DNA from: a virus
IMG/VR virus record: IMGVR_UViG_3300046513_000234
Coordinates: 1 to 47,707 of that record
Strand: one strand, 5' to 3'
DNA: 47,707 nt
This document shows positions 375-46,651 of the stretch, piece after piece. Made by a program: the position numbers and the translations under genes. Numbering within the stretch: the first letter of the stretch is position 1; the number at the start of each line of letters is the position of its first letter. The notes under the pieces are model-generated. The model was given only the letters and a program-made list of their open reading frames with translations, did no database searches and was not told where the DNA came from.

Positions 375-1739
375 ATGAATATGACACCATTCCAAGTACC
401 TGTAACTAAGCTTGATTTCGATCTGCAAAACCCGCGCTTTCCCGTACAAACTAGCCAACGTGAGGCGCTGGACAAGATTCTGCTCGACAGCACGGCGAAG
501 ACAATCAAGCTGGCGGAACACATTATTGCGAACGGCCAGAATCCGATTGATCTACTCGCGGTATACGAGACGGAAGGCCGGCGGTACGTCGTGCTGGAAG
601 GGAACCGCAGGACCGCTGTGCTGAAAGCGCTGTCCAAGCCGGTCTTGCTCGATTCCCTGCCACCGGGTGCTGGCGTGCCGGCCTTCATCAAGAAGATGAA
701 ACAGCTGGCTGCCCAAGTTAGTCATGATGCGGTCAGCAAGATCAATGTGGTATCTTTTCCAACGCGTGAAGAGGCGGACGTATGGATTTTGTTGAAGCAT
801 ACTGGTGAAAATGACGGTGCTGGTACTGTCGGCTGGGATGGCACGCAGCGCGCACGCTTCCGCAAGGGCGACGTCGGCATGAACCTAATCGACTTCGGTA
901 AGGCGAACGGGTGGTTTACGGATGATCAGTTAACTGCGCGTGGGCCATTCCCCATTACCACCTTCAACCGTCTGCTTGGGGATCCTGGTGTGCGCGCGAT
1001 CATGGGTGTTGAAAAGACCGGCGGCAAGCTTCAGAGCTTGGTGCCAGTGGCCGAACTCGAAAAGGTCGTCACGCGTGTTGTGCAGGACTTGGCGAAAGGC
1101 GAATGGAACGTCACCAAGCTGAAGAGCAAGGCGCAACGCCAAGGTTACATGGAGCAGCTGCCAAAATCGGTCATTCCCAAAACGCAGGCGCCCGAAGGCG
1201 CGTGGGCGGTAGACCCGGACGTGGCGTTAGAGGTAGTTTCACCACCGCCGAAAACCCGTGTCCGCGAAAAGCCGTTAACGCGGACGACGCTGATTCCGAA
1301 GAACTTTACGATTTCTGCCAGCGATAGCAGTCCACGTTTGGGCACGATCTATCGTGAGTTGAAGGCGCTGCAGGTAGAAAAGCAAAAGAATGCGGTAGCG
1401 GTTCTCCTGCGTGTGTTTATCGAGCTGAGCCTGGATGATTACATTCCACGTGAGAAGGTTACGATCATCAGGAAAGACGCGGGCCGCACCACGCTGGCGG
1501 ATAAGGCGATCTCTGCGGCCGCGCACCTGAAGAAGTCTGACAAGCTGAACAAGAATCAAGAAGACATAGTAAGCCGCCTGGTGGGTAACGGCCAAGACCC
1601 GAAGACCGAAGTCACGAGCATCACGACCCTGCATGCTTTTGTTCACAGCCGTCATTCCTCGCCTTTGCCAAGCGAACTTTTGACCATTTGGGACAATATT
1701 TCCGACTTCATGCGCTTGATTACGCATGTACAAAGTTGA
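375..1739 (+). CDS. ParB N-terminal domain protein, prophage cargo
   Basis: This 454-residue protein has a ParB/Srx-like N-terminal fold. Residues 8-90 contain a box-like GNRRT at 76-80 in place of the usual GERR of ParB, preceded by a VLEGNR strand as in DNA-binding ParB relatives. The central and C-terminal parts (about 130-454) are not recognised; they are charged, soluble and lack membrane segments. It is followed by an adenine methylase on the same strand after a 7-bp stem-loop (1760-1778), so the two may work as a pair. The location between attL and integrase is typical for lysogenic cargo such as defence genes. No clear Shine-Dalgarno lies before the ATG. The domain is well supported; the cellular role is not known. 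Confidence 0.7.
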   Translation: MNMTPFQVPVTKLDFDLQNPRFPVQTSQREALDKILLDSTAKTIKLAEHIIANGQNPIDLLAVYETEGRRYVVLEGNRRTAVLKALSKPVLLDSLPPGAGVPAFIKKMKQLAAQVSHDAVSKINVVSFPTREEADVWILLKHTGENDGAGTVGWDGTQRARFRKGDVGMNLIDFGKANGWFTDDQLTARGPFPITTFNRLLGDPGVRAIMGVEKTGGKLQSLVPVAELEKVVTRVVQDLAKGEWNVTKLKSKAQRQGYMEQLPKSVIPKTQAPEGAWAVDPDVALEVVSPPPKTRVREKPLTRTTLIPKNFTISASDSSPRLGTIYRELKALQVEKQKNAVAVLLRVFIELSLDDYIPREKVTIIRKDAGRTTLADKAISAAAHLKKSDKLNKNQEDIVSRLVGNGQDPKTEVTSITTLHAFVHSRHSSPLPSELLTIWDNISDFMRLITHVQS

Positions 1740-1795
1740 TGCTGGCCAGCCGTGTCAAAAGGCGCTAAAGTAGCGCCTGTTCAACGGAGGTCCAC

Positions 1796-2653
1796 TTGTC
1801 AAGTTATCACTCACCACTGCGTTACCCAGGCGGAAAGACCAAATTGACGGAGTACGTCAAGGCTCTTTTCCGCCATAACCGACTGATGGGCGGAAACTAT
1901 GTCGAGCCTTACGCCGGTGGCGCATCGGTGGCCTTGGAGCTGGTGATCCAGGAATTCGTAGAGAAGGCCCACATCAATGACTTAGATCGCTCTGTGTGGG
2001 CATTTTGGCATTCTGTCTTGAACGACGCGGATAGCTTGTGCGCCCTCATCGAGGACGTCGATGTGAACATGGAATCGTGGACGGCCCAGCGGGAAGTGCA
2101 AGCTCGCAAGGATTCCGCCGATGTCTTAGAGCTAGGATTCTCCACGTTCTTTTTGAATCGGACGAACCGATCCGGCATTCTCAGGGCCGGGGTCATTGGG
2201 GGCAAGGATCAGACTGGTAACTTCAAGATCGACGCACGCTTTCGTAAGGATGAATTGATCAAACGCGTCCAGACAATTGCGGAGCACAACGATAGAATCG
2301 AACTCTACCAACTGGACGCCGTTGAGCTGTTGCAGACGGTTGTACCTGGCCTACCGGATCGCACCCTCGTTTACCTTGATCCTCCGTACTACGTAAAAGG
2401 CGGAGATCTATACGAACATCATTACAAGCATGATGATCACGCGGCGGTCGCATCTGCGGCGCTTGCAATTCGTCAGCACTGTCTAGTTTCCTACGACGAC
2501 GTCCCCGAGATCCGTGAGCTATACCGGGATCTACAGTATGTCAGCTACAGCCTGAGTTACACAGCGCAGAACAGATATCGCGGCACTGAGGCTATTTTTT
2601 TAGGTCATTCTTTGGAGTGTCCTGGGTTGCAGGCGTCGATGCAGGCCGCGTAA
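1796..2653 (+). CDS. DNA adenine methylase, D12 class (left copy)
   Basis: This is an N6-adenine DNA methyltransferase of the Dam/D12 family, 285 residues, the usual family length. The N-terminal AdoMet motif RYPGGKTKL is at 9-17, a second binding segment EPYAGGAS at 37-44, and the catalytic DPPY at 195-198. The start is TTG, chosen because GGAGG ends 5 bases upstream; no later ATG has a comparable site. It lies 56 bases behind the ParB-domain gene in the cargo segment, so a joint modification or defence function is possible but unproven. The target sequence cannot be read from the gene; GATC is common in this family. A second, dissimilar D12 methylase is at the right end of the same prophage. 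Confidence 0.9.
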   Translation: MSSYHSPLRYPGGKTKLTEYVKALFRHNRLMGGNYVEPYAGGASVALELVIQEFVEKAHINDLDRSVWAFWHSVLNDADSLCALIEDVDVNMESWTAQREVQARKDSADVLELGFSTFFLNRTNRSGILRAGVIGGKDQTGNFKIDARFRKDELIKRVQTIAEHNDRIELYQLDAVELLQTVVPGLPDRTLVYLDPPYYVKGGDLYEHHYKHDDHAAVASAALAIRQHCLVSYDDVPEIRELYRDLQYVSYSLSYTAQNRYRGTEAIFLGHSLECPGLQASMQAA

Positions 2654-3426: not shown

Positions 3427-3549
3427 AAGGCCGCTGGCATCGAAAAACAACCTACTTTAGTGACAAAGTGTGACTTGCCGCACGTTGTGTCGCATTGGTT
3501 ACAAGTAAGTTCCATCGAAAACGGTCGGTCACTATACCCGGATTTCTGC

Positions 3550-5080: not shown

Positions 5081-5358
5081 TGGCCGCTCCCGTATTGTTT
5101 TGCCATGGCCAGCGCGGCCAACCGCTCGTCCTGCCGCAAGTGTGAGTCAGGCGCCACTCCGCGGACTTGAAGGTCGAAGCCCACATGCAGCTTTTGCGTC
5201 AGCGTCATGTTTCTGCGCAGGCTCAGGATGATCTCGTGAGCCAGCTGCAGCTCGCTGGCCAGCGTCATGGCCGTGCGGTCGGCGAGCTGCAGCTGGCCGG
5301 CCAAGCTCGTCGCGGCCTCGCGGAAATTGTGCATTATCGAGTTGGATTTGATGCTCAT
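5077..5358 (-). CDS. Small phage protein, unrecognised
   Basis: This 93-residue protein has a helical middle (REAATSLAGQLQLADRTAMTLASE and following) with heptad-like leucines, so it may form a coiled coil. No enzyme motif is visible. It is joined by ATGA overlaps both to the large ParB gene upstream and to xis downstream, so it is translated as part of the left operon. A product acting with ParB or with excision is possible but unsupported. Confidence 0.7.
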   Translation of the reverse strand: MSIKSNSIMHNFREAATSLAGQLQLADRTAMTLASELQLAHEIILSLRRNMTLTQKLHVGFDLQVRGVAPDSHLRQDERLAALAMAKQYGSGQ

Positions 5359-7523
5359 ACTGGGTACTCCATTTCGGTCGGCAGGCCGTCATTCGCTGGA
5401 AGCGAGGCCGCGCGGTTTTTCTTGATCCTCACAACGGGGCCATCCGCAGCGACCGGCGCCGCTGGCTTTGCCTTGAGCTGCAGTTTCGCGCGCTGGTGGC
5501 CGGTAGCCGTTTCGGATGCTTGCTCGGGCGTTGCAGCGTCGGCCTGGCGGAATGGCTCGGCGTCGACGGCATGGTGCGTGGCCTGGTCAACTTGCGCCTG
5601 TGAGTCAACCTGGTTGGGCGCTTTCATCCAGCCGCCCTTGTAGATGTAGCCCTCAGCCAGCGCGGCCGCCTCAAGCTCGCTCAGTCGATGGGGCTGCTCA
5701 TCGAGGAGCGTTTCGGACAGGTCGGAAAGGCGCTCTGGGTGTTCGCTGATGAACTTGCGCAGAGCTTCCGTCGTCGCAATGCAGGCCAGGTCGATCATGT
5801 CATGTTGCGGCAGCTCCAATTGCGCCGGCGCCGCCGGCGCTGCTTTGGGCTTGCTTGCCTTGGGCTTCTTCGACGCCTTGGCTTCCGCGTCGCGCTTGAC
5901 GTCTTTGCGAATCTGCGCGGCGTTCACGTTGAACTGCTCGGCAACGGCAAGCAGGCGAGTGGGCTTGTCGTTGCTGGCGGTATGGGTGTACACGAACAGG
6001 TCCTGCGCCCACACCAGGTCGCGGATAAGGACTGCCGCTTGTTCAACGTCCAGGGCGTCCACCAGTCTCTCAAGCTTCACGGTGCCTGAAATCCATTTCG
6101 AGCCGTCGTGTCCCGCCTGGTACTCGCTGGAGTCCCAGCCGTACACGGTTGCGACGAAGGGCAAGACGTCGGTATGGCATTGCTTGAGCAGTGCCATCGC
6201 AGCGGCGCGCACCTCCGCAGGGGTAAGCTCAGGAGTGGCGGCGGACCGTACAGCCATAAACAAGCGGCGGCGATATTCGCGTTCGATTTTCGCGGCGGCC
6301 GCCTGCTCCTTCTCGCGCTCTTTCTGAGCCAGGTTGCGTGAGCGCTCCGTCTCTGGAATTGGCTTACCGGCGGCAGTGAGTGCGGCCTCGATGTCGTCCA
6401 CCTTGGCAACGGTGAGCATTTCGCCGTTGTGCGGTTGCTCCAGCAGCACCATAGGCGGCAGCTTCTTGCCCAGCAGTTTGCGGTACGTCGTGGTGCCCCC
6501 TTTTTGCAGATATAGCTGCTTGTCGAGATCGATGTAGCCGCCTTTTAAGTCGCCGTACGACTGGGGCATGATCTTGCGAGCCTGCTCACCGGATATCACG
6601 GCAACGCCCTTGCTCTTGGCATCGGCGCGTTCCCGGCCCTGCTGCGCACCTCGCTTGTCCGCAAAGCATGCTGGGTCCGTGCAGACGTCTGCACTTGCGT
6701 CATCGCCCTCGAAATCAGGTTGATTGCCGGCGCGCTTCGGACATTCGATGCAAGAGCCGGCGTCCGTCAGCGTGACGTCCTTGATAGGAAAAGTCGCGGT
6801 CTGCAGGTTGAGCGTGAAATTCCGGCGAATGTGATCGCGCGCTTCACGATATGTCATTGGGCCTTCGTGCCCCCGGTAGCCGTTCGGCTTCGTGATCTCA
6901 CTTACCGCCTGGGCTTGGAGCTTTGGATTCGGGATGCGTGCAATGAGTTGCCCGGTCTCGGCCGTCAGCAGGCCGTCAAAGAAGGCGTCGCGCGCGCTGA
7001 TACACAGCTCGCAAAGCTTCAGGCGGTTGTAGATGTAGGTGCGGCTCTGCTTCACCGTCTCCATGACCTGTTCCACGGTGAAGCCGAAGCCGTGCATGAG
7101 CTGCTGGTAGCCTTCAGCTTCTTCCAGCGGATGCGGGTCCTCGCGCTGGACGTTCTCCAGCAGCTGGATGCGGAGCGCCTGCTCGTCGCTCATGGCAATG
7201 ATGCGCGCGGGTATCGCGAACAGTTCAGCCATCACGGCCGCGCGGAAGCGGCGCTCGCCGGCGACGATCTCGTATGGCTGCGGTTCCGCATCGGTCGCGG
7301 GCATGGGGCGCAGCAGGATTGGCTGCATGATGCCCACTTCGCGCGCCGAGGCCGCCAAGTCATCCAGTGCGCCCATGTCGAAGCGCTTGCGATTCGTCTT
7401 TGATATGCGGATTTGGAACAGCGGCACGTCGCGGTAGCCGTCCGTCACCAGTTCATCAACGACGATGACCTGGTCGGCGGGCATCGGCACCACTGGCGCC
7501 GGCAGTAGAACAAGTTTGCTCAT
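5355..7523 (-). CDS. parB: Large ParB/RepB/Spo0J-family protein
   Basis: This 722-residue protein has a ParB N-domain at about 35-130, with GERRFRA at 89-95 and LLENVQRED at 121-129. A helix-turn-helix at about 147-172 (GFTVEQVMETVKQSRTYIYN) is the usual specific-DNA reader. A cysteine cluster follows (CIECPKR, then DVCTDPACF) that could bind zinc, and a long Ala/Lys/Pro-rich C-terminus. It is about twice the normal ParB size, as in several phage and plasmid ParB proteins. No ParA ATPase gene is seen in the prophage. The gene contains one of six copies of a 16-bp palindrome (6679-6694) that are candidate binding sites. Possible roles are phage genome partition, condensation or transcriptional silencing. 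Confidence 0.88.
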   Translation of the reverse strand: MSKLVLLPAPVVPMPADQVIVVDELVTDGYRDVPLFQIRISKTNRKRFDMGALDDLAASAREVGIMQPILLRPMPATDAEPQPYEIVAGERRFRAAVMAELFAIPARIIAMSDEQALRIQLLENVQREDPHPLEEAEGYQQLMHGFGFTVEQVMETVKQSRTYIYNRLKLCELCISARDAFFDGLLTAETGQLIARIPNPKLQAQAVSEITKPNGYRGHEGPMTYREARDHIRRNFTLNLQTATFPIKDVTLTDAGSCIECPKRAGNQPDFEGDDASADVCTDPACFADKRGAQQGRERADAKSKGVAVISGEQARKIMPQSYGDLKGGYIDLDKQLYLQKGGTTTYRKLLGKKLPPMVLLEQPHNGEMLTVAKVDDIEAALTAAGKPIPETERSRNLAQKEREKEQAAAAKIEREYRRRLFMAVRSAATPELTPAEVRAAAMALLKQCHTDVLPFVATVYGWDSSEYQAGHDGSKWISGTVKLERLVDALDVEQAAVLIRDLVWAQDLFVYTHTASNDKPTRLLAVAEQFNVNAAQIRKDVKRDAEAKASKKPKASKPKAAPAAPAQLELPQHDMIDLACIATTEALRKFISEHPERLSDLSETLLDEQPHRLSELEAAALAEGYIYKGGWMKAPNQVDSQAQVDQATHHAVDAEPFRQADAATPEQASETATGHQRAKLQLKAKPAAPVAADGPVVRIKKNRAASLPANDGLPTEMEYPV
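6679..6694. repeat. 16-bp palindrome copy 1 (candidate parS-like site)
   Basis: GTGCAGACGTCTGCAC, a perfect palindrome inside the parB gene, where it is read as ADVCT. It is identical to copies at 8121, 17182, 23578 and 38208. Confidence 0.75.
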
Positions 7524-10185: not shown

Positions 10186-10627
10186 CCACGAATTGCCGCG
10201 CCGTGGCAGCGCCGCAGCGACCGGCTTGATCACGCTTCAAGGTATGGGTGGCATGGGCACGGTCTCCGCTTGGCTGCGTGCGAAGGGCTGGCGTGCCTCC
10301 CGCGCCCTGTTCTTTTCGGATGTTGTGGATCGTCTGATGCGCGCACAACTGGTGATCCTGGAGGGAGAGCGCTTCATTATCACCAATGCGGGGTACAAAT
10401 ACCTGGGCGTCAAGGTTGAGGGCGACGCTGAGGCGCCTGCCACTCCCGTTGGCCCACGTTACGCGGCGCCTATGCGTGCACTGAACATCGGCCGCCATAG
10501 TCCCGCGCGCATCATTCGCCCCGGCTCGATGGACTTCCGCGAGATCCCGTCCCGAATTGGTGACGACCTGGTCGCCTACAAAGGCCCGCGCGGATTCTCC
10601 GGCGCCACCGGGAGCGAAGTCGCCTGA
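10178..10627 (+). CDS. Small winged-helix-like phage protein
   Basis: 149 residues. The segment reading TVSAWLRAKGWRASRALFFSDVVDRLMR followed by an EGERFIITNAGYKYL wing looks like a winged-helix DNA-binding fold; the C-terminal 50 residues are Pro/Gly-rich. It overlaps the preceding gene by 8 bases and touches the primase-helicase gene, so it is co-translated. Replication accessory or regulatory function is possible; no family is recognised with certainty. Confidence 0.65.
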   Translation: MANHELPRRGSAAATGLITLQGMGGMGTVSAWLRAKGWRASRALFFSDVVDRLMRAQLVILEGERFIITNAGYKYLGVKVEGDAEAPATPVGPRYAAPMRALNIGRHSPARIIRPGSMDFREIPSRIGDDLVAYKGPRGFSGATGSEVA

Positions 10628-13206
10628 TGTCTGATTTTGATGCTATTCCACAAGAGCTGCGTGAGCGGCCGCAGTGGCTTGTGTGGCGTTTTGAGCCGAA
10701 CCCGAACCCAGCGAAGACCAAGCCGCTGAAGGTTCCGTATTGGGTCAGCGGTAAGAAGCGCTACGGAGTGCAGGGCGACCAGGCCGACCGTAGCCGCCTC
10801 GTCGCGCTCGACGTTGCCCTGGCCACGCTGGCGGCGTCCAATGGGCACTACACAGGCATCGGCTTTGCGTTCCTCGCCGGCGATGGCTTGATCGGCGTTG
10901 ACATCGACAAGTGCATCGACCTGGAGACGGGCGAGGTCACCGAGTTGGCTCTGCAAGCTATGGCCGGCTGCGACTCGTACACCGAGTATTCGCCTTCGGG
11001 CGCCGGTATCCACATCATCGTCGCCGGCGCCACGACGACCTTTAAATCGAATGAGATTGGCCTGGAGGTGTTCTGCTCCAGTCAGTTCTTCACCTTCACC
11101 GGGCGCCAGCTCTCCGGTTCGCCCTCCGCGATCAATCCGATTTCGGACGCCGAGCTTGACCGCCTGCGTGTCTTAGTCCGTGGCGCTCGCCCTGCTGCTA
11201 CTCCAGCGCGTGCGAACACGTCGCCCCCCCTTCCCCCCGGCGCAAGCGACCTCCGCGCGCGTCTCGACGCCGCCCTAGCTTACATCAGCCCGGAGGGCCA
11301 TGACCAATGGATCCGTGTCGGTATGGCGCTGTACAGCGCCCTGGGCGACAACGGCTTTCGCGTGTGGGATTACTGGTCTTCGCGCGCCGAGAGCTACGGC
11401 GGCGAAGAGGAGCTGAAAAAGCGCTGGGCTTCGTTCGGCAAGCGCGGCGTGAACATCACTGAAGCGACCATTTTCAAGATGGGTATCGATGGCGGCTGGA
11501 AGCCACCGCGTTCGGTTCTTCCTCCTCCTATCAAGTCTGGTTCAGTGTCCCCCCGCCCCCCCAGCGGAAGCGCCGCCGTCGGCTCGTCCGCCGCCCCCCC
11601 GCCCCCGGCGGGAAGCGACGGCGGCGTAATCAGCGCTGGGCCAGCCCAGCGAGGAGAGGGGTTAATTCAAGCGGGGGCGGAGGCCCCCGAGAACGACGAC
11701 CAAGTCGTCGAAGCCGCAGTCGGTGACGCCGCTGATTCGTTCACGGCCGCCGTCGGCTCGATGGTGGCCACCTACGACTATCCGCTATCCGACGACGACA
11801 GCGCGCCGGCCGGCCTGGATGACATCCCGTTCGGCGAGAGCGCGCCGCTTTTCGCCGGGGGGGAGGGGGCCGGTGATGTCGCCAAGAAGGAAAAGCCGAA
11901 GAAGGTATATGGCGCGGAGCATTGGGCGGCTGTTGAGGACGTTCTCGACAACTTCATTCTGATTTATGGCGAAGACCTGGTATGGGATGACCGTCACCGC
12001 AAGCTGATGAAGCTGTCGGCGATGCGGGTCATCGTCCAGAACAACGATGTGATGAAGTTTTGGGGCGGCGAGGCGCGCAAGTGGGTAATGAAGGACAACA
12101 TCGTGTTCGATCCAACGGAAACGCCCAGTCCGGCGCGCAGCGGTCCGACCGCGACCGTCAACCTGTTCAATGGCTGGCACATGACACCGAAGCAGGGCAG
12201 CTGTACGCAAATCAAGGGCCTGCTGGCGCACCTGTGTGATGGCAACGACGACCTGTATCTGTGGATATCGCGCTGGTTGGCCTACCCGCTGCGCAATCCC
12301 GGCGCGAAGATGGAAACCTCGATCATCATGCACGGCGACGAAGGGTCGGGTAAGAATTTCTTCTTTGAGAAAGTCATAAAGGCGATCTATGGCAAGTACG
12401 GCTACGTGATCGGCAATCAGCAGCTGGAGGCCCCGTTCAACGACTGGGCGTCGATGAAGCTGTTTCTGGTGGCTGACGAAGTGGTCACGCGGTCCGAGTT
12501 GAAGCAGATGAAGGGCAAGCTGAAATATCTGGTATCGGGTGACACGATCATCATCAACCCGAAGGGCTTGCCCGAACACAGCGAGGCCAACCAGATGAAT
12601 TTCGTCTTCCTGTCCAACGAACTGCAACCGCTGGCGCTCGATAAGACCGACCGCCGCTACCTGGTGGTCTGGACGCCGCCTGCGATGTCCAAGGAGTTCT
12701 ACGTCAGCGTGGCCGACGAGATCAATGCCGGCGGCATCGAGGCGTTTTACTACTACCTGATGTACGAGCTGGACATGGGCGACTTTAACGAGCACACGAA
12801 GCCCATCTACAACGACGCCAAGGACAAGCTGATCGAAAAGAGTCTGGCGCCAGCCGAGCGCTTTTACCGCGAGTGGTCAACGGGCCTGCTGCCCTTGCCC
12901 TTCATCACGGTGGGCGTAACGCAGCTGTACGAGGCGTTCCAGACCTGGTGTAACCGGTCAGGTGAGTCGCGGTACACGACGCAGACCATGTTCAGCCCCT
13001 CGGTCGAGCGCTATGCCGGCGCGGCGCTGAAGAAGCACCCGCTGAAGTACGAGCTGGGGCATGTGGTCAAGCAGCGCATCGTGTTCCTAGTGGGCGAGCA
13101 GCCGGAAGGCAAGACGCTGCGTGACTGGGCCGAGCCGGCGTGCGCCCTGTTCGAGTCGGCGCTAAAGACGTACAAGAGCAGAGGATTTGTCGATGTTGAC
13201 GGTTAA
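10627..13206 (+). CDS. Phage primase-SF3 helicase
   Basis: This replication protein of 859 residues makes primers and unwinds DNA. The N-terminal primase-polymerase-like region (1-190) contains VDIDKCID and GAGIHIIV strands. A PriCT-2 domain lies at about 212-285 and a Pro/Gly-rich linker at about 290-425. A superfamily 3 helicase (DUF5906 type) follows, with Walker A GDEGSGKN at about 570 and Walker B LFLVADE at about 613, then FVFLSNE and RRYLVVW. The gene ends in a TGTTGACGG motif that belongs to the adjacent iteron cluster. Such initiator helicases often act on a nearby origin. No other replication gene is present in the prophage. Confidence 0.9.
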   Translation: MSDFDAIPQELRERPQWLVWRFEPNPNPAKTKPLKVPYWVSGKKRYGVQGDQADRSRLVALDVALATLAASNGHYTGIGFAFLAGDGLIGVDIDKCIDLETGEVTELALQAMAGCDSYTEYSPSGAGIHIIVAGATTTFKSNEIGLEVFCSSQFFTFTGRQLSGSPSAINPISDAELDRLRVLVRGARPAATPARANTSPPLPPGASDLRARLDAALAYISPEGHDQWIRVGMALYSALGDNGFRVWDYWSSRAESYGGEEELKKRWASFGKRGVNITEATIFKMGIDGGWKPPRSVLPPPIKSGSVSPRPPSGSAAVGSSAAPPPPAGSDGGVISAGPAQRGEGLIQAGAEAPENDDQVVEAAVGDAADSFTAAVGSMVATYDYPLSDDDSAPAGLDDIPFGESAPLFAGGEGAGDVAKKEKPKKVYGAEHWAAVEDVLDNFILIYGEDLVWDDRHRKLMKLSAMRVIVQNNDVMKFWGGEARKWVMKDNIVFDPTETPSPARSGPTATVNLFNGWHMTPKQGSCTQIKGLLAHLCDGNDDLYLWISRWLAYPLRNPGAKMETSIIMHGDEGSGKNFFFEKVIKAIYGKYGYVIGNQQLEAPFNDWASMKLFLVADEVVTRSELKQMKGKLKYLVSGDTIIINPKGLPEHSEANQMNFVFLSNELQPLALDKTDRRYLVVWTPPAMSKEFYVSVADEINAGGIEAFYYYLMYELDMGDFNEHTKPIYNDAKDKLIEKSLAPAERFYREWSTGLLPLPFITVGVTQLYEAFQTWCNRSGESRYTTQTMFSPSVERYAGAALKKHPLKYELGHVVKQRIVFLVGEQPEGKTLRDWAEPACALFESALKTYKSRGFVDVDG

Positions 13207-13460
13207 CCGCCCACATCGTAGCACCCCCCCCCCACATCGCAAACCCGCATGAATACTAGGGATGTTGGCGGTATTGGCAGTATTGACGGTTTTGTCTCAC
13301 CCACGCGCACGTATAGGGCTGATAGGTGGGATGAAGTAGCAGGGTGGTGGCAAATTTTTATACCAATTCAAATTTAACTATCAACACTATCAATACAGTC
13401 AACAAAGCTAGTAAAAATCAGGCTCTCCGATGTGGGGGGTAGTGTTGACGGTGTTGAGGG
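13194..13460. other. Candidate phage replication origin (9-bp iterons)
   Basis: Nine-base repeats of the form TGTTGACGG occur in four places: one at 13194-13202, three in tandem at 13263-13289, three in tandem on the other strand at 13378-13404 and two at 13443-13460. Between the opposed arrays lies an AT-rich stretch (about 13350-13377) that could melt. Inverted C/G runs with CCACATCG (13211-13238) and CGATGTGG (13428-13435) frame the unit. It follows the primase-helicase gene directly. Function is inferred from structure. Confidence 0.6.
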
Positions 13461-21610: not shown

Positions 21611-21672
21611 GCCGGCGCTGCCGCACGCGGCGCCGGCCGGCGCCGCGTCAACGACTACTTTAGGAAAAAAAC

Positions 21673-21960
21673 ATGACCACGCAATACAAGATCCGCCATG
21701 GCTTCAGTTTCGTTGATCACCTGGGCGCGGTGCTGACCGGCGGCCGGGTGGTTGAGCTGGCCGACGACGTCGCGCAACTCCACCTGCACAAGCTCGAAGT
21801 CCTACCGGCGCCGACCTCCAAGCGCGCGCCACCGAAGGCGCAGAAAGTGGCCGCAGCCGACACTCCTGCAGCCGAGGCTGCGCCGGAGCTGGAGGCAGTC
21901 GGCGCCGAGCCCGAGGGCGCACAGGGCGACCTGGCGTCCGATTCCGGCGACGGCGAGTAA
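21673..21960 (+). CDS. Small head protein, lambda FI position
   Basis: 95 residues. The first 45 (GFSFVDHLGAVLTGGRVVELADD) form a small globular unit; the second half is an Ala/Pro/Glu-rich, acidic and probably disordered tail. It follows the capsid gene like lambda FI, which helps packaging, but sequence similarity to FI is not evident. A purine-rich TAGGAAAAAAAC precedes the ATG. Confidence 0.65.
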   Translation: MTTQYKIRHGFSFVDHLGAVLTGGRVVELADDVAQLHLHKLEVLPAPTSKRAPPKAQKVAAADTPAAEAAPELEAVGAEPEGAQGDLASDSGDGE

Positions 21961-38566: not shown

Positions 38567-38619
38567 TTGTCGGTATGGTTGACGGTATCTACAAATACCG
38601 CCAAAACGGATACCGTCAC
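38567..38619. repeat. Island integrase arm-site cluster, left
   Basis: Four 12-mers: TTGTCGGTATGG and TTGACGGTATCT in tandem (38567-38590), then two reverse-strand versions TTGGCGGTATTT (38593-38604) and GTGACGGTATCC. They sit immediately before the integrase ATG and match the tandem pair at 46764-46787. They could serve both recombination and int autoregulation. Confidence 0.6.
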
Positions 38620-39882
38620 ATGCCGAAACTCGCAGTCCCTCTTACCGACATCCAACCCCGCACAGCGAAGCCAAAGGACAAGCCTTACAAGCTGTCGGAC
38701 GGCGGCGGCCTCTACCTCTTGGTCAATACCGACGGCGCGAAGTATTGGCGCATGGATTACCGGTATGGCGAAGCCCGTCGCACACTGGCCTTCGGCAAGT
38801 ATCCCGAGGTCACGCTCGCGGAAGCCCGCGACAAGCGCTTGGCGGCCCGCAAGCTGCTCGACCAGGGGACTGACCCCAGCCAGGATAAAAAGGAGCGCCA
38901 GCGCGAGCTGAGCGAGGCCAACGGCAACACGTTTGAAAAGCTGGCCCGCGAGTGGCACAGCAACAAGCTGCCGACGTGGAGCACCGCTACCGCACGCGAC
39001 ACGATACGGCGGCTGGAGATCGACATCTTTCCGCAGATCGGTTCCATGCCTATCGGCTCGGTCAAGCACCAGCACATGATCGCCGCATTGCGCAAGATCG
39101 AAAGCAGGGGCGCGCACGAGATCGCACACCGCATCAAGGCGACGTGCGCCCGCGTGTTCACCTACGCCAGCCAGCAGGGGATCGAGAACCGCAACCCGGC
39201 GGCGGACATGAAAGATGTGCTTAAGCCCGTCAAGGCAGGTCACTTCGCCGCCATCACGGCTGATGAACTGCCCGCCTTCCTGGCAGCGATGGACACGAAC
39301 TGCGCCCGCCTGTTCAAGCCAACCCGCATCGCCTTGCGTATGATGATGCTGGTCTTCGTGCGCACGTCCGAGTTGATCGAAACGCCTTGGAGCGAAATCG
39401 ACCTTGAGGCCGGGGAGTGGATCATTCCTTGGCACCGCATGAAGCGGGGCAAGCTGACCGTGAACCCTGATACGACCGACCACCACGTATGCCTCTCCTC
39501 GCAAGCGCTCGACCTGCTGCGTGAGCTGCACGCGCTGACCGGCGGCGGCAGGTATCTGTTCCCGAATCAGCGCGACCACGAAAAGCCCATGAGTAACGGC
39601 GCGATTTTGATGGCAATCAAGCGCATGGGCTACCAGAACCGCATGACCGGCCACGGCTTCCGTGCGCTCGCCATGTCTACAATCAAGGAGCGCTTGGGCT
39701 ACCGGCATGAGGTAGTAGACCGCCAGCTTGCGCACGCGCAGAAAGACAAAATAGCTGCGGCCTACGACCGGGCGCAGTTCTTGGCTGAGCGGCGCGTGAT
39801 GATGCAGGATTGGGCCAATTTCCTTGATGGAGTTGCTGCGGGCAAGGTCATCGTTGGCTCGTTTGGGAAGCGCGCAGCATGA
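38620..39882 (+). CDS. int: P4-type tyrosine integrase of the island
   Basis: 420 residues from the ATG at 38620. The N-terminal DUF4102-type arm domain begins with PLTDIQPRTAKPKDKPYKLSD and contains GGLYLLV. The catalytic domain has Arg in FVRTSELIETPW, the box HGFRALAMS and the nucleophile Tyr in AAYDRAQF after RQLAH. In-frame codons extend upstream to 38524, but they lie in the arm-repeat cluster, so the later start is preferred. It inserts elements at tRNA 3' ends and faces away from the tRNA, as usual for this family. Confidence 0.93.
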   Translation: MPKLAVPLTDIQPRTAKPKDKPYKLSDGGGLYLLVNTDGAKYWRMDYRYGEARRTLAFGKYPEVTLAEARDKRLAARKLLDQGTDPSQDKKERQRELSEANGNTFEKLAREWHSNKLPTWSTATARDTIRRLEIDIFPQIGSMPIGSVKHQHMIAALRKIESRGAHEIAHRIKATCARVFTYASQQGIENRNPAADMKDVLKPVKAGHFAAITADELPAFLAAMDTNCARLFKPTRIALRMMMLVFVRTSELIETPWSEIDLEAGEWIIPWHRMKRGKLTVNPDTTDHHVCLSSQALDLLRELHALTGGGRYLFPNQRDHEKPMSNGAILMAIKRMGYQNRMTGHGFRALAMSTIKERLGYRHEVVDRQLAHAQKDKIAAAYDRAQFLAERRVMMQDWANFLDGVAAGKVIVGSFGKRAA

Positions 39883-43225: not shown

Positions 43226-44209
43226 ATGATGAACGGAAAGATACTTCGGCAGCTTATCAAAGCTGGCACCACTGGGGACTCAGCGGTGTTTCGTCGTGCT
43301 TCAGAGGCAATTATTGAGAACGAACGGCAAAAGCAGCATCACTTGCTTGCCAACGATTTAGAGCGAATTCTGTATGGGGATCACCAAAATGTGAATCCTG
43401 GTCGGGCGAACAAGCTACCAGCGTCCCCTGTTGATAAAGAACGTGGCTTCCCGCTGCTGGATATTCGGCAGCCGCAACGCTCGTTGGAAGAGCTTATCGT
43501 TGGCGCTGCTAGTGTAGCTGCGGTTGACGACTTGCTTGAGGAGCATAGGCGTTCCGACCTGCTACGCAGTTACGGAATGAAGGCAGCGGGGAAAGTCCTA
43601 TTTTATGGTCCACCGGGGTGCGGTAAGACGTTGGCTGCTGAAGTCATCGCTTTTGAACTTGATATGCCACTTGCAATTGTGCGCCTCGACGCATTGGTGT
43701 CGTCGTTCTTAGGTCAAACTGCAGCTAACCTACGACAGGTATTCGAATTCGTCGGGGAGCACTCAATGGTTGTTCTGTTCGACGAGTTTGACGCTATTGG
43801 CAAGGAGCGTGACGATAGTAGTGAACATGGCGAACTTCGAAGGGTTGTAAATGCGGTGTTGCAGATGATGGATGCTTACCAGGGCAAGAGCCTAATTTTG
43901 GCTGCGACTAATCATGAGCAAATTTTGGACACCGCAATTTGGCGGCGCTTTGATGACACCATAGAGTTCCTATTGCCAGAGCCGGCTCAGATCGTTCAGC
44001 TGTTGCAACTGAAGTTGCGAGGAATCAGGCGGCAATTTGAGCTGGATGACGTAGATGTGGTGAGCGAATTTAAAGGAATGAGCGGAGCCGACATAGAACG
44101 AACTATACGGCGGGCAGTTAAACATATGATCCTGCGGAGCCAAGAATTTTTGACTCTGAAGGATCTTAAAAGTGCCCTAGCGAGAGAAAGTCGGAGTAAT
44201 ATTAGGTAA
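43226..44209 (+). CDS. ietA: AAA+ ATPase, IetA-like
   Basis: 327 residues. Helical N-terminal 110, then one AAA module: Walker A GPPGCGKT (128-135), pore-loop-like SFLGQTAANLR, Walker B VVLFDEFDAIG (182-192), sensor 1 Asn229 in AATNHE, arginine finger in WRRFDD (240-241) and sensor 2 in GADIERTIRRA. It is FtsH/SpoVK-like but lacks a protease domain. A second ATG at 43229 fits the AGGGGG site better. The pairing with a cytoplasmic subtilisin 24 bases downstream matches IetA, reported as the antitoxin partner on an Agrobacterium Ti plasmid and as part of an anti-phage module. GC is clearly lower than in the prophage. Confidence 0.85.
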   Translation: MMNGKILRQLIKAGTTGDSAVFRRASEAIIENERQKQHHLLANDLERILYGDHQNVNPGRANKLPASPVDKERGFPLLDIRQPQRSLEELIVGAASVAAVDDLLEEHRRSDLLRSYGMKAAGKVLFYGPPGCGKTLAAEVIAFELDMPLAIVRLDALVSSFLGQTAANLRQVFEFVGEHSMVVLFDEFDAIGKERDDSSEHGELRRVVNAVLQMMDAYQGKSLILAATNHEQILDTAIWRRFDDTIEFLLPEPAQIVQLLQLKLRGIRRQFELDDVDVVSEFKGMSGADIERTIRRAVKHMILRSQEFLTLKDLKSALARESRSNIR

Positions 44210-44233
44210 CGTTGACTCTGCTATAGGGATGGA

Positions 44234-46651
44234 ATGGAATCTGACTTCAAACACTTAACTATCAAAAGAGAAGTCTTAGAAAATCCCCGTCGCACCCGCA
44301 ATCCCCCATTTTTTGTCCGGCGCGACGATATGCGAGCGCACGGAAGGCGTCTGAACGCTTTTTTCGCAACAGCTCGTGCAGCCGCTGGGAAGCTGATTCC
44401 CTCATCAACACAGACTTATATTTTCAAGCTCCAATACGAAGGTGCGTTAACCTTTGAAAATCTCCGTATTCATGGTGTGGAGTTCATCAGCCAAGAAGAT
44501 AGCCAGGTTTGCGTGGTGTTTGCTGATGAGCAGGGCCTAATGAAATTTTCTGACCATCTTGATCGGCTTGGGCAGAACGATACCGATATAACTTATAAGC
44601 AAATTCTTGAGGCGTTGAGTGGCATTGACTGCTGGACTGAGGCTGACCGCACTAGTTGGGCTATTCAACGTAAAGGGTTGCCAAAGGATGAGTCGTTTAA
44701 ATTAGATATTGAGCTTTGGCCCATCTATGCCGCCAACCATCCTGAGAGACTTCGGTTGTGCGCTGCTTTTGAGACATGGCTTGTTGCCGAAAAAATCCAG
44801 AATCTTGATAAAGTTAACTTAGACAGCCTTTTGATATATAGGTTGAAAGTGACACATTCTCAGGCTAAAGAATTGTTGAATCATATGGATGTCAGGTGCG
44901 TTGATTTATTGCCTGAAACAGGAATCGAATACAATTTTCAGCTTAATCGCGACATTGCCGAAATCCCACGCAATATTCCTTCGCCAAGCGAAACCGCTAC
45001 GAAGATTTGTATTTTGGACAGTGGAGTAAATACAAATCATCCGCTCCTTAAGTCATCCATGGCTGAGAGTGCAACATTTATTTCGAATGAAGATGAGAGT
45101 GATCTAAATGGGCACGGAACAGCGGTTGCGAGCATTGCACTTTACGGAGATTTAGAGGCATGTAACGCTAGTGACTTTTGGCAACCTGAACTTTGGATTT
45201 ATAGCGGGAAAGTGCTTAATGTAGACGGTGATTTCGACGTTAAGACTATCGAATCTACACTTATCGAAGCTGTTAATTATTTTACTGAGCTGGGCTGTCG
45301 GATATTCAATGTTTCTTTTGGAAATGCCAACTCGCCATATGATCAACGACACATTAAGGGAATGGCGTATACGTTGGATCGGTTGGCGCGGAGTAAGGGA
45401 GTCTTATTCGTCGTTTCTTGTGGGAACTTCAATGGATCTGAAGATCCGCCTGTTCCAAAGGATAGTTGGCGTGAAGAATATCCAGAATATTTAATTCATT
45501 GCGAAAATCGGATAATTGATCCAGCCCCTGCGTTAAACGTTTTGACTGTTGGCAGCTTAGCTCGGCACAATGCTACGAAGGATGCTCAGCAACGCGAGGA
45601 CGATATTTCTCAGCTTTCTCCTGCAATCGAAAACCAGCCTTCGCCATTTACTCGTCATGGCCCGAGTGTGAAAGGTGCGCTCAAACCTGAGTTGGTTGCG
45701 CATGGGGGTAATTTCGCCAATCCTATGCGATTCGAGGGAAAGCAATGGCAAAAGGTTGATTCGCGTCTAGGGGTGTTGGCTTGTCGGAGTGATTTTATTG
45801 GAAATACTTTGTTCTCTGAAAAATCGGGAACCAGTTTTTCAGCACCATATGTTTCCCATTTGGCGGGGCGGTTCCTTAATCAATATCCTAATTCGTCTGC
45901 AAATTTGGTTCGGGCAGCACTTCTTAATCATGCAGCTATGGTTAGTGAGATTGAGGATACTTTTACTGAAGAGTTTAAAAAGGCCTATAAAGAAGATCCT
46001 AAGACTCTCAATAGAGATGTGGCTCGTGATGTGGCAGGTTATGGCGTTGTGAACGAAGATTTGCTTTATAGGTCATCTGAAAATGCTGTCGTTCTTATGA
46101 TTGAAGACTCCATTGAAAATGACTCACATCAATTCTTTGAATTGCCTCTACCTTCGGATTTTTTGCGTTCAAAACGCGCATCCCGCGAATTGAGAATTTC
46201 CTTAGCCTATACGCCGGAAGTCCGAACTACGCGTATTGAATATACCGCAACAAAAATTAGCTTCCGATTTGTCAGGGGAAGTAGCTTGGAAGAGGTGGCG
46301 AATCACTTCAATCATGATACGCAAGAAACGGCTGAGTCGAGAAATGACGATGCTACTACGAATAGGACTATAACTGCGCAGACCCGTGATCGTGGAACTG
46401 CGCAAGCATCAATATGGCATTTCCGGCAATGTAGACCGACCGAAAAATGGTTTGTGGTCGTCACTCGCCAAGACCGCGAATGGGGGAAAGCTGTTGCCTT
46501 GGAGCAGGAACCTTACGCGCTGATAATTACAGTTACGGATTTTGAAAATGCGGAGGCTCAGCTATATACGCAGATCCAGACCAAAATCCAAGCGCGTAAC
46601 CAAGCTCAAGGACGTAATCAAGCCCAAGAGCGCCAGCGAGGTCGAACGTAA
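44234..46651 (+). CDS. ietS: Subtilisin-like serine protease, IetS-like
   Basis: 805 residues. The S8 catalytic triad is complete: Asp262 in ILDSGVNTNH, His294 in NGHGTAVAS and Ser534 in SGTSFSAPYV. Residues 1-250 form an unrecognised N-terminal domain. There is no signal peptide, so it acts in the cytoplasm. The C-terminal part (about 600-805) is beta-rich and ends in a Gln/Arg-rich tail (NQAQGRNQAQERQRGRT). Its partner ATPase probably restrains or directs it. In the ietAS model the protease is the toxin or effector. Low GC and codon use unlike the flanks indicate recent transfer. Confidence 0.87.
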   Translation: MESDFKHLTIKREVLENPRRTRNPPFFVRRDDMRAHGRRLNAFFATARAAAGKLIPSSTQTYIFKLQYEGALTFENLRIHGVEFISQEDSQVCVVFADEQGLMKFSDHLDRLGQNDTDITYKQILEALSGIDCWTEADRTSWAIQRKGLPKDESFKLDIELWPIYAANHPERLRLCAAFETWLVAEKIQNLDKVNLDSLLIYRLKVTHSQAKELLNHMDVRCVDLLPETGIEYNFQLNRDIAEIPRNIPSPSETATKICILDSGVNTNHPLLKSSMAESATFISNEDESDLNGHGTAVASIALYGDLEACNASDFWQPELWIYSGKVLNVDGDFDVKTIESTLIEAVNYFTELGCRIFNVSFGNANSPYDQRHIKGMAYTLDRLARSKGVLFVVSCGNFNGSEDPPVPKDSWREEYPEYLIHCENRIIDPAPALNVLTVGSLARHNATKDAQQREDDISQLSPAIENQPSPFTRHGPSVKGALKPELVAHGGNFANPMRFEGKQWQKVDSRLGVLACRSDFIGNTLFSEKSGTSFSAPYVSHLAGRFLNQYPNSSANLVRAALLNHAAMVSEIEDTFTEEFKKAYKEDPKTLNRDVARDVAGYGVVNEDLLYRSSENAVVLMIEDSIENDSHQFFELPLPSDFLRSKRASRELRISLAYTPEVRTTRIEYTATKISFRFVRGSSLEEVANHFNHDTQETAESRNDDATTNRTITAQTRDRGTAQASIWHFRQCRPTEKWFVVVTRQDREWGKAVALEQEPYALIITVTDFENAEAQLYTQIQTKIQARNQAQGRNQAQERQRGRT

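Follow-up and report, generated by a model that had tools for sequence, protein, structure and literature searches.

A mirror array of twelve iterons behind a primase-helicase gene is the probable replication origin of a temperate phage

Where does a temperate phage that carries its own primase-helicase begin to copy its DNA? We consider this question for the stretch 13194-13460 of the IMG/VR virus record IMGVR_UViG_3300046513_000234 (positions 1 to 47,707, a stretch of 47,707 nucleotides called the window below), at the 3' end of the gene for an 859-aa primase-helicase (10627..13206, plus strand). The window is a full temperate phage of soil and water bacteria, with integrase, S24-type repressor, CII, terminase, portal and tail genes. 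An earlier note, made from the sequence alone, had proposed a probable phage origin here. We conclude that 13194-13460 is very likely the vegetative replication origin of this phage, probably read by the 859-residue protein encoded upstream. This reading, which draws on sequence comparison, is supported by the close relatives, by distant phages that use the same layout with a motif of their own, and by the kinship of the protein to D5-type SF3 helicases.

Direct reading and a motif scan gave 12 iterons of 9 bp within 13194-13460. The array described in the earlier note was therefore real, while its count of nine copies was three too low. With the scan motif T[GA]TTG[AG][CT][GA]G and a site defined by at least 8 of 9 matches, 10 sites fell in the 267 bp from 13191, where the window average predicts 0.65; the best other place had 4. 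A de novo count of 9-mers, with one mismatch allowed, was 6 at the array, while none of 100 dinucleotide-preserving shuffles gave more than 3. A raw count of 6 was also reached at two other places of the same window (38568-38726 and ≈21612-21899), so it is the spacing and the conservation that carry the case of the array. The first of these two places, 38568-38726, holds six TGTCGGTAT-like 9-mers in 160 bp, within coding sequence.

The first iteron, s1 (TGTTGACGG, 13194..13202, plus strand), makes up the codons for V-D-G that precede the primase stop at 13204-13206, so that one iteron does lie in the coding end of the helicase, as had been claimed; this slot is common to most relatives. The remaining iterons are all 3' of the stop. 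On the outer left are s2 (TGTGGGCGG, 13207..13215) and s3 (TGTGGGGGG, 13228..13236), both on the minus strand. The inner left trio s4-s6 (TGTTGGCGG, TATTGGCAG and TATTGACGG; 13263..13289, plus strand) runs head to tail in a 9-bp step, with starts at 13263, 13272 and 13281. The inner right trio s7-s9 (TGTTGATAG, TATTGATAG and TGTTGACTG on the minus strand; 13378..13404) has the same step, with starts at 13378, 13387 and 13396, and is inverted with respect to s4-s6; the three-copy tandem arrays in opposite orientation that the note had described can thus be read directly. The outer right sites, all on the plus strand, are s10 (TGTGGGGGG, 13431..13439), s11 (TGTTGACGG, from 13443) and s12 (TGTTGAGGG, from 13452), the last two filling 13443..13460. 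The inverted CCACATCG/CGATGTGG blocks that were thought to frame the unit are not separate elements; they coincide with the iterons s2, s3 and s10 (TGTGGGCGG, TGTGGGGGG and TGTGGGGGG). A scan for promoter-like and terminator-like sites inside the array found none, and an Rfam search gave a single match, isrJ, below threshold.

The positions of these sites are highly symmetric. With 13333.5 as the dyad centre, the sites form five base-exact mirror pairs (s2/s12, s3/s10, s4/s9, s5/s8 and s6/s7); when the four groups of the array were placed at random, five were reached 68 times in 5000. In arrays of this type, the inner trio of each half runs opposite to the outer one.

For about 50 close relatives, with C-terminal halves of the protein 72-94% identical, we found that the twelve slots were kept in nearly all cases, at a near-constant distance to the primase stop. 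An alignment with related phages had been proposed as a check on the origin; it was run here, and the outcome named as speaking against an origin, iterons missing from near relatives that have the same helicase, was not what it gave. The motif that fills the slots varies by lineage (TGTTGACGG, TGTTGAGGG, TGTGAAGGG, TGTGATGGG and, at locus L060, ATTGGGCGG). The slots were more similar within one genome than between genomes (0.72 vs 0.62); the slots of one genome change together, a pattern expected of binding sites that track one protein. We also observed a conserved word, AACCCGCATGRATAC, between s3 and s4 at 13238-13256 and in the relatives L004, L005 and L037. It has an inverted copy at the mirror place in L004 and L037, while in L005 the left copy is reversed; the word is possibly a host-factor site.

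Natural exchanges of the halves of the protein show which of them the motif goes with. Some relatives have another N-terminus, with no PriCT_2 or AEP domain (in phage pAN, the alternative N-terminus gives a Pfam Toprim_3 match), and their layout and motif family are unchanged. In relatives that share the AEP half and have a VapE-like helicase, the layout is the same and the motif unrelated (AGGTTGGGA, GGTTGTGAC); locus L084 is a like case (ATGCGGAAT). The motif family is therefore kept under a swap of the N-terminus and lost under a swap of the helicase, so the motif travels with the helicase half. Within the family, divergence of the iteron sequences correlated best with divergence in residues 701-790 (partial Mantel 0.33, with the rest of the C-half controlled; 0 of 300 permutations reached this value), with a peak in the window of residues 770-794. 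The correlation was weak for residues 791-859 (0.17), and none was seen for residues 425-560, the N part of the helicase. Residues 781-784 differ by iteron class: GEPM occurs with most TGTGAA arrays, GES.(Y/F)I with TGTGAT/TGTTAT and GES(K/R)(Y/F)T with most TGTTGA. We regard this pairing as a lead for mutagenesis, short of proof.

The same layout appeared far beyond the close relatives. A detector that uses no motif was applied to 123 non-identical regions and to named phages. For 24 lineages defined at 60% identity, the cluster counts were above those of all 40 shuffles in 22. The shared plan consists of three outer sites, a distance of ≈34-47 bp, three inner sites in a 9-bp step, a core of ≈57-106 bp, three inverted inner sites, the same distance again and three outer sites. 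Most of the more distant phages hold to this geometry, with helicases of other kinds (DUF5906 or VapE-like) and motifs that are unrelated (AGGTTGGGA, GGTATGGAA, CCCAACACA, CATGTGCGG and more). Both inner trios could be fitted in full in 55 arrays. Three outer sites stood on the left in 47 of these and on the right also in 47, and in 48 of 54 the inner-outer distances of the two sides were equal or 1 bp apart. A correlation between left and right gaps was tried as evidence of symmetry and dropped, since a shift of the motif register moves both gaps together. The total number of sites ranged from 10 to 15 among relatives.

Named phages with this layout include pAN, PG1, Turba, LPPA56, SC_9 and KT1 (Pseudomonas), Halomonas phage H4907, Stenotrophomonas phage S1 and Marinobacter phage PS3. 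In phage Haddon the array is ≈380 bp away from the gene, with an inserted open reading frame (ORF) between them. In small plasmids that carry a DUF5906 or PriCT-2 gene, 10-11 iterons adjoin this gene. Hypothetical ORFs overlap the iteron arrays at L187:2454-2804 (gp2 of phage S1) and at L194:3088-3445 (Haddon); these may be mis-annotated origin DNA. Acinetobacter phage Acjo_20 has no array downstream of its primase gene; nine TGTAACACT-like 9-mers are situated ≈230-570 bp upstream of the gene (L191:2909-3257), possibly an origin on its other side.

The 88 bp between the inverted inner trios (13290..13377) form the core, the proposed melting region. The earlier note had described the core as AT-rich. 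This holds for 13350..13378, the segment adjoining the inner right trio, where the best 20 bp of the core have 17 A/T; the description overlooked, however, a GC-rich run of 14 bp at 13302..13315 (CACGCGCACGTATA) in which purines and pyrimidines strictly alternate. This run is Z-DNA-prone and is found in family members at the same position. An alternating run of such length never appeared when the core was shuffled 200 times with its dinucleotides preserved, and 0.6% of the 88-bp windows of the whole stretch had one. The GC content of the core is 0.44 overall; the cores of many relatives are GC-rich with an alternating tract. Over the 55 fitted arrays, the longest alternating run in the core was on average 20.8 bp, compared to 9.8 bp in dinucleotide-preserving shuffles, with p<0.05 in 49 arrays and a maximum of 53 bp noted for locus L110. 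At 41 of the 55 loci, the value was unmatched by any stretch of equal length elsewhere in the fetched DNA. The length of the run dropped with rising AT-richness (Spearman -0.46, p 4e-4, an optimistic p-value given that the loci are related), as if AT-richness and the alternating tract were alternative aids to core opening. The plasmid-borne relatives (in Citrobacter, E. coli and Roseomonas) have their 10-11 iterons with no long alternating tract; an origin of this type can therefore do without one. A literature search found no description of an alternating purine-pyrimidine tract in a phage origin.

The adjacent protein, the proposed initiator, is made up of an AEP primase, PriCT_2, a D5-type SF3 helicase (DUF5906) and a predicted C-terminal winged helix. 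Pfam matches were obtained for PriCT_2 and DUF5906 (E 6e-19 for the latter), and the PHROG assignment is DNA primase. Sequence matches in the PDB were the SaPI5 primase (7ola) and the NrS-1 primase (6k9c/6lrb), the nearest solved helicase domain. An AlphaFold2 model of residues 425-859 had a mean pLDDT of 83, and Foldseek related it to the C-terminal region of the NrS-1 protein (E 1e-18), to SaPI5 7ola (E 8e-10) and to the poxvirus D5/E5 helicases. The C-half is thus modelled as a D5-type SF3 hexameric helicase with the AAA+ fold. Following the helicase, the model predicts a winged-helix DNA-binding domain at residues 764-822 (12916..13092, plus strand), defined from its secondary structure, with helices at 764-778 and 786-800 and a beta hairpin extending to 822. 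The adjacency to an SF3 initiator-type helicase, claimed in the earlier note, was borne out: the enzyme is kin to initiators that bind iterons lying downstream (PMC7581432, PMC6092414).

The closest known parallel is the origin of the phage-inducible chromosomal islands (PICIs), including the Staphylococcus aureus pathogenicity islands (SaPIs). There, the origin also lies directly 3' of the primase-helicase or initiator gene, and two sets of short iterons surround a putative melting region (PMC6092414, PMC7581432). Two iteron sets always flank the central region in PICI origins, and the pri-rep-ori module drives plasmid replication, as was shown for SaPIbov1 and EcCICFT073 (PMC6092414). The likeness of our layout to this replicating module is counted in favor of the origin reading. 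The C-terminal domain of PICI and SaPI initiators recognises the iterons, and the window protein has its predicted winged helix at the C-terminus; it also has the helicase fold in common with SaPI5 PriRep1, as judged by Foldseek. On the other hand, the window has a fixed palindromic layout of twelve sites, and in its core a GC-rich alternating tract replaces or accompanies the AT-rich DNA. A PICI as an element is a helper-dependent satellite with no structural genes, which the window, a full temperate phage, is not.

The satellite phage P4 also has short iterons, which stand in mixed orientation with steps of 9-11 bp. The annotated type 1 repeats of its ori1, with orientations '---+--' and spacings of 10, 11, 22, 43 and 10, are exactly equal to or one off those of the left half of the pAN array (9, 10, 22, 44 and 9). 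The P4 crr, directly after the gene for the alpha primase-helicase, has spacings of 9/18/11 that fit the other type of half with one inner site missing. In P4, however, the half-units are split, with ori1 ≈4.7 kb from crr, and crr is a 120-bp direct repeat, whereas in the window two inverted half-units stand side by side. No second comparable cluster of the array's motif was found in the window, which has this one array and not the P4 arrangement, where type 1 iterons at ori1 and a separate crr are both required.

In phage NrS-1, the source of the nearest solved helicase domain, repeats also follow the primase gene: 13 TTACACTTT-like copies (locus L200) begin ≈11 bp past the primase stop at 3474 and overlap a short annotated ORF. 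Unlike the sites of the window, they are irregularly spaced, and no mirror layout was fitted. We consider these repeats, behind a well-studied primase-polymerase gene, a candidate iteron origin. SV40 T antigen and papillomavirus E1 are SF3 initiator-helicases with palindromic sites, and two hexamers load at their origins. Their origin-binding domains are N-terminal and their sites number 4-6, whereas the window has twelve sites and a protein with a predicted winged helix at its C-terminus; the sites are not homologous. The functional comparison with such origins was drawn previously (PMC7581432). Like the window array, the element that pRN1 requires lies 3' of an AEP-helicase gene (PMC4234260); this element is a single stem-loop with no iterons, while the iteron layout of the window type is independent of pairing.

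On the computed sites, dyad, conservation of layout across motif classes, helicase family and winged-helix covariation, a mechanism can be proposed. The 859-residue protein would bind the twelve 9-bp iterons via its C-terminal winged helix. Each half, with its six sites, would nucleate one self-loading D5-type helicase hexamer, so that two hexamers stand face to face; one hexamer per half is suggested by the six sites per side and the mirror relation of the halves. The core would then open between the hexamers, helped by the AT-rich segment and by the alternating tract, which may relieve negative supercoiling. The AEP domain of the initiator itself would prime both strands, and forks would leave in both directions.

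Several observations weigh against this picture. The left outer trio of the window array is irregular: s11 has no mirror partner and s1, outside the mirror, stands in its stead, though there are still six sites on either side of the core. Site counts depend on the threshold, and the exact 3+3+3+3 pattern, with a core free of extra calls, was found in 32 of the 55 fitted arrays. VarioGold, phiVC8 and BIP-1, which have a related helicase, showed no clear cluster near the gene. Covariation of iterons and winged helix is confounded by common descent.

Three other explanations were considered. The origin signal could be a stem-loop (cruciform) made by the inverted trios, as was proposed for pRN1 and PriCT_2 phages (PMC4234260), the repeats being a by-product of its arms. 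The inner trios are indeed inverted, being 76% complementary in the window and near perfect arms in some relatives; similarity is slightly higher between partner slots (0.751) than between slots that are not partners (0.703; p ≈1e-5), and the pRN1 study reports a large stem-loop 3' of the PriCT_2 replication gene in phage BIP-1 (PMC4234260). Still, a weak dyad preference of the slots accounts equally well for the excess among partners, the six outer iterons, outside the stem, resemble the inner ones no less than inner sites that are not partners resemble each other (0.712 vs 0.703), a stem has no need of head-to-tail 9-bp repetition, and BIP-1 itself has no such array after the gene. We therefore find a stem-loop origin very unlikely. 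It is most improbable, too, that the array is an operator, autoregulatory or incompatibility site of the primase-helicase or of another phage regulator instead of an origin. An array that reaches into the primase gene at its 3' end and into the following gene at its 5' side would suit such a role, and iterons are known to set copy number in plasmids. The array is, however, downstream of the initiator gene, away from its promoter; the promoter and terminator scan of it was empty; the Haddon array is set off behind an inserted ORF; and the layout equals that of proven PICI origins (PMC6092414) and of P4 ori/crr. A control role may exist alongside the origin function.

The third explanation shares the origin reading and differs in stoichiometry: one hexamer, or another number of subunits, may be loaded, with the 6+6 sites serving cooperative binding or looping (handcuffing). 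We hold this to be quite possible, though less likely than not. P4 uses six type 1 iterons at ori1 with the distant crr, SCCmec (staphylococcal cassette chromosome mec) has three iterons only (PMC7581432), and the relatives have 10 to 15. Moreover, a simple ring with one subunit per site does not account for inner and outer trios that point in opposite directions within a half. On the side of two hexamers are the recurrence of three outer sites per side and the mirror halves, which fit two identical assemblies. A wider claim, which we put forward tentatively, is that of a blueprint independent of motif: a mirror grid of 3+3 sites, core and 3+3 sites may set two hexamers face to face across phages with DUF5906 or VapE-like helicases, with a Z-DNA-forming tract in place of the AT-rich unwinding element in GC-rich genomes.

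Besides the origin, the window holds other genes of interest. At 43226-46651 (plus strand), in a GC-poor segment at the far end of the phage, the gene for an AAA ATPase (327 aa) precedes that for a subtilase-family S8 protease (805 aa); the pair is a clear IetAS anti-phage defence system (PADLOC: IetA E 1e-104, IetS E 0). On the integrase side, two genes at 375-2653 (plus strand) match the A and B defence models of PD-Lambda-5 (E ≈1e-118 each), the B match being a D12 adenine methyltransferase; this is the second known defence system in the window. A 722-aa ParB-like protein (ParB_N and HTH_ParB) is encoded at 5355-7523 on the minus strand, in the early region of this integrase-bearing phage.

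As a kind, the iteron origin of the PICI/SaPI/P4 type is already known, and its organisation in PICIs was stated to be common to no other known replicon (PMC6092414). What is new is the finding of this origin in many different full temperate phages, the twelve-site mirror layout independent of motif over two helicase families, and the alternating core tract. One type of origin, earlier described as unique to PICIs, joins P4, PICIs and temperate phages. The layout bears on strand opening and on the way in which self-loading SF3 helicases of phages and satellites come together on duplex DNA as two opposed rings, and a fixed grid of sites that outlasts a complete change of motif leads to direct predictions of subunit placement. 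Natural iteron classes paired with winged-helix variants are material for work on initiator specificity, and the layout offers a sequence-only route to the origins of uncultured phages. If true, strand opening at a Z-DNA-prone element would give replication a kind of start that is new.

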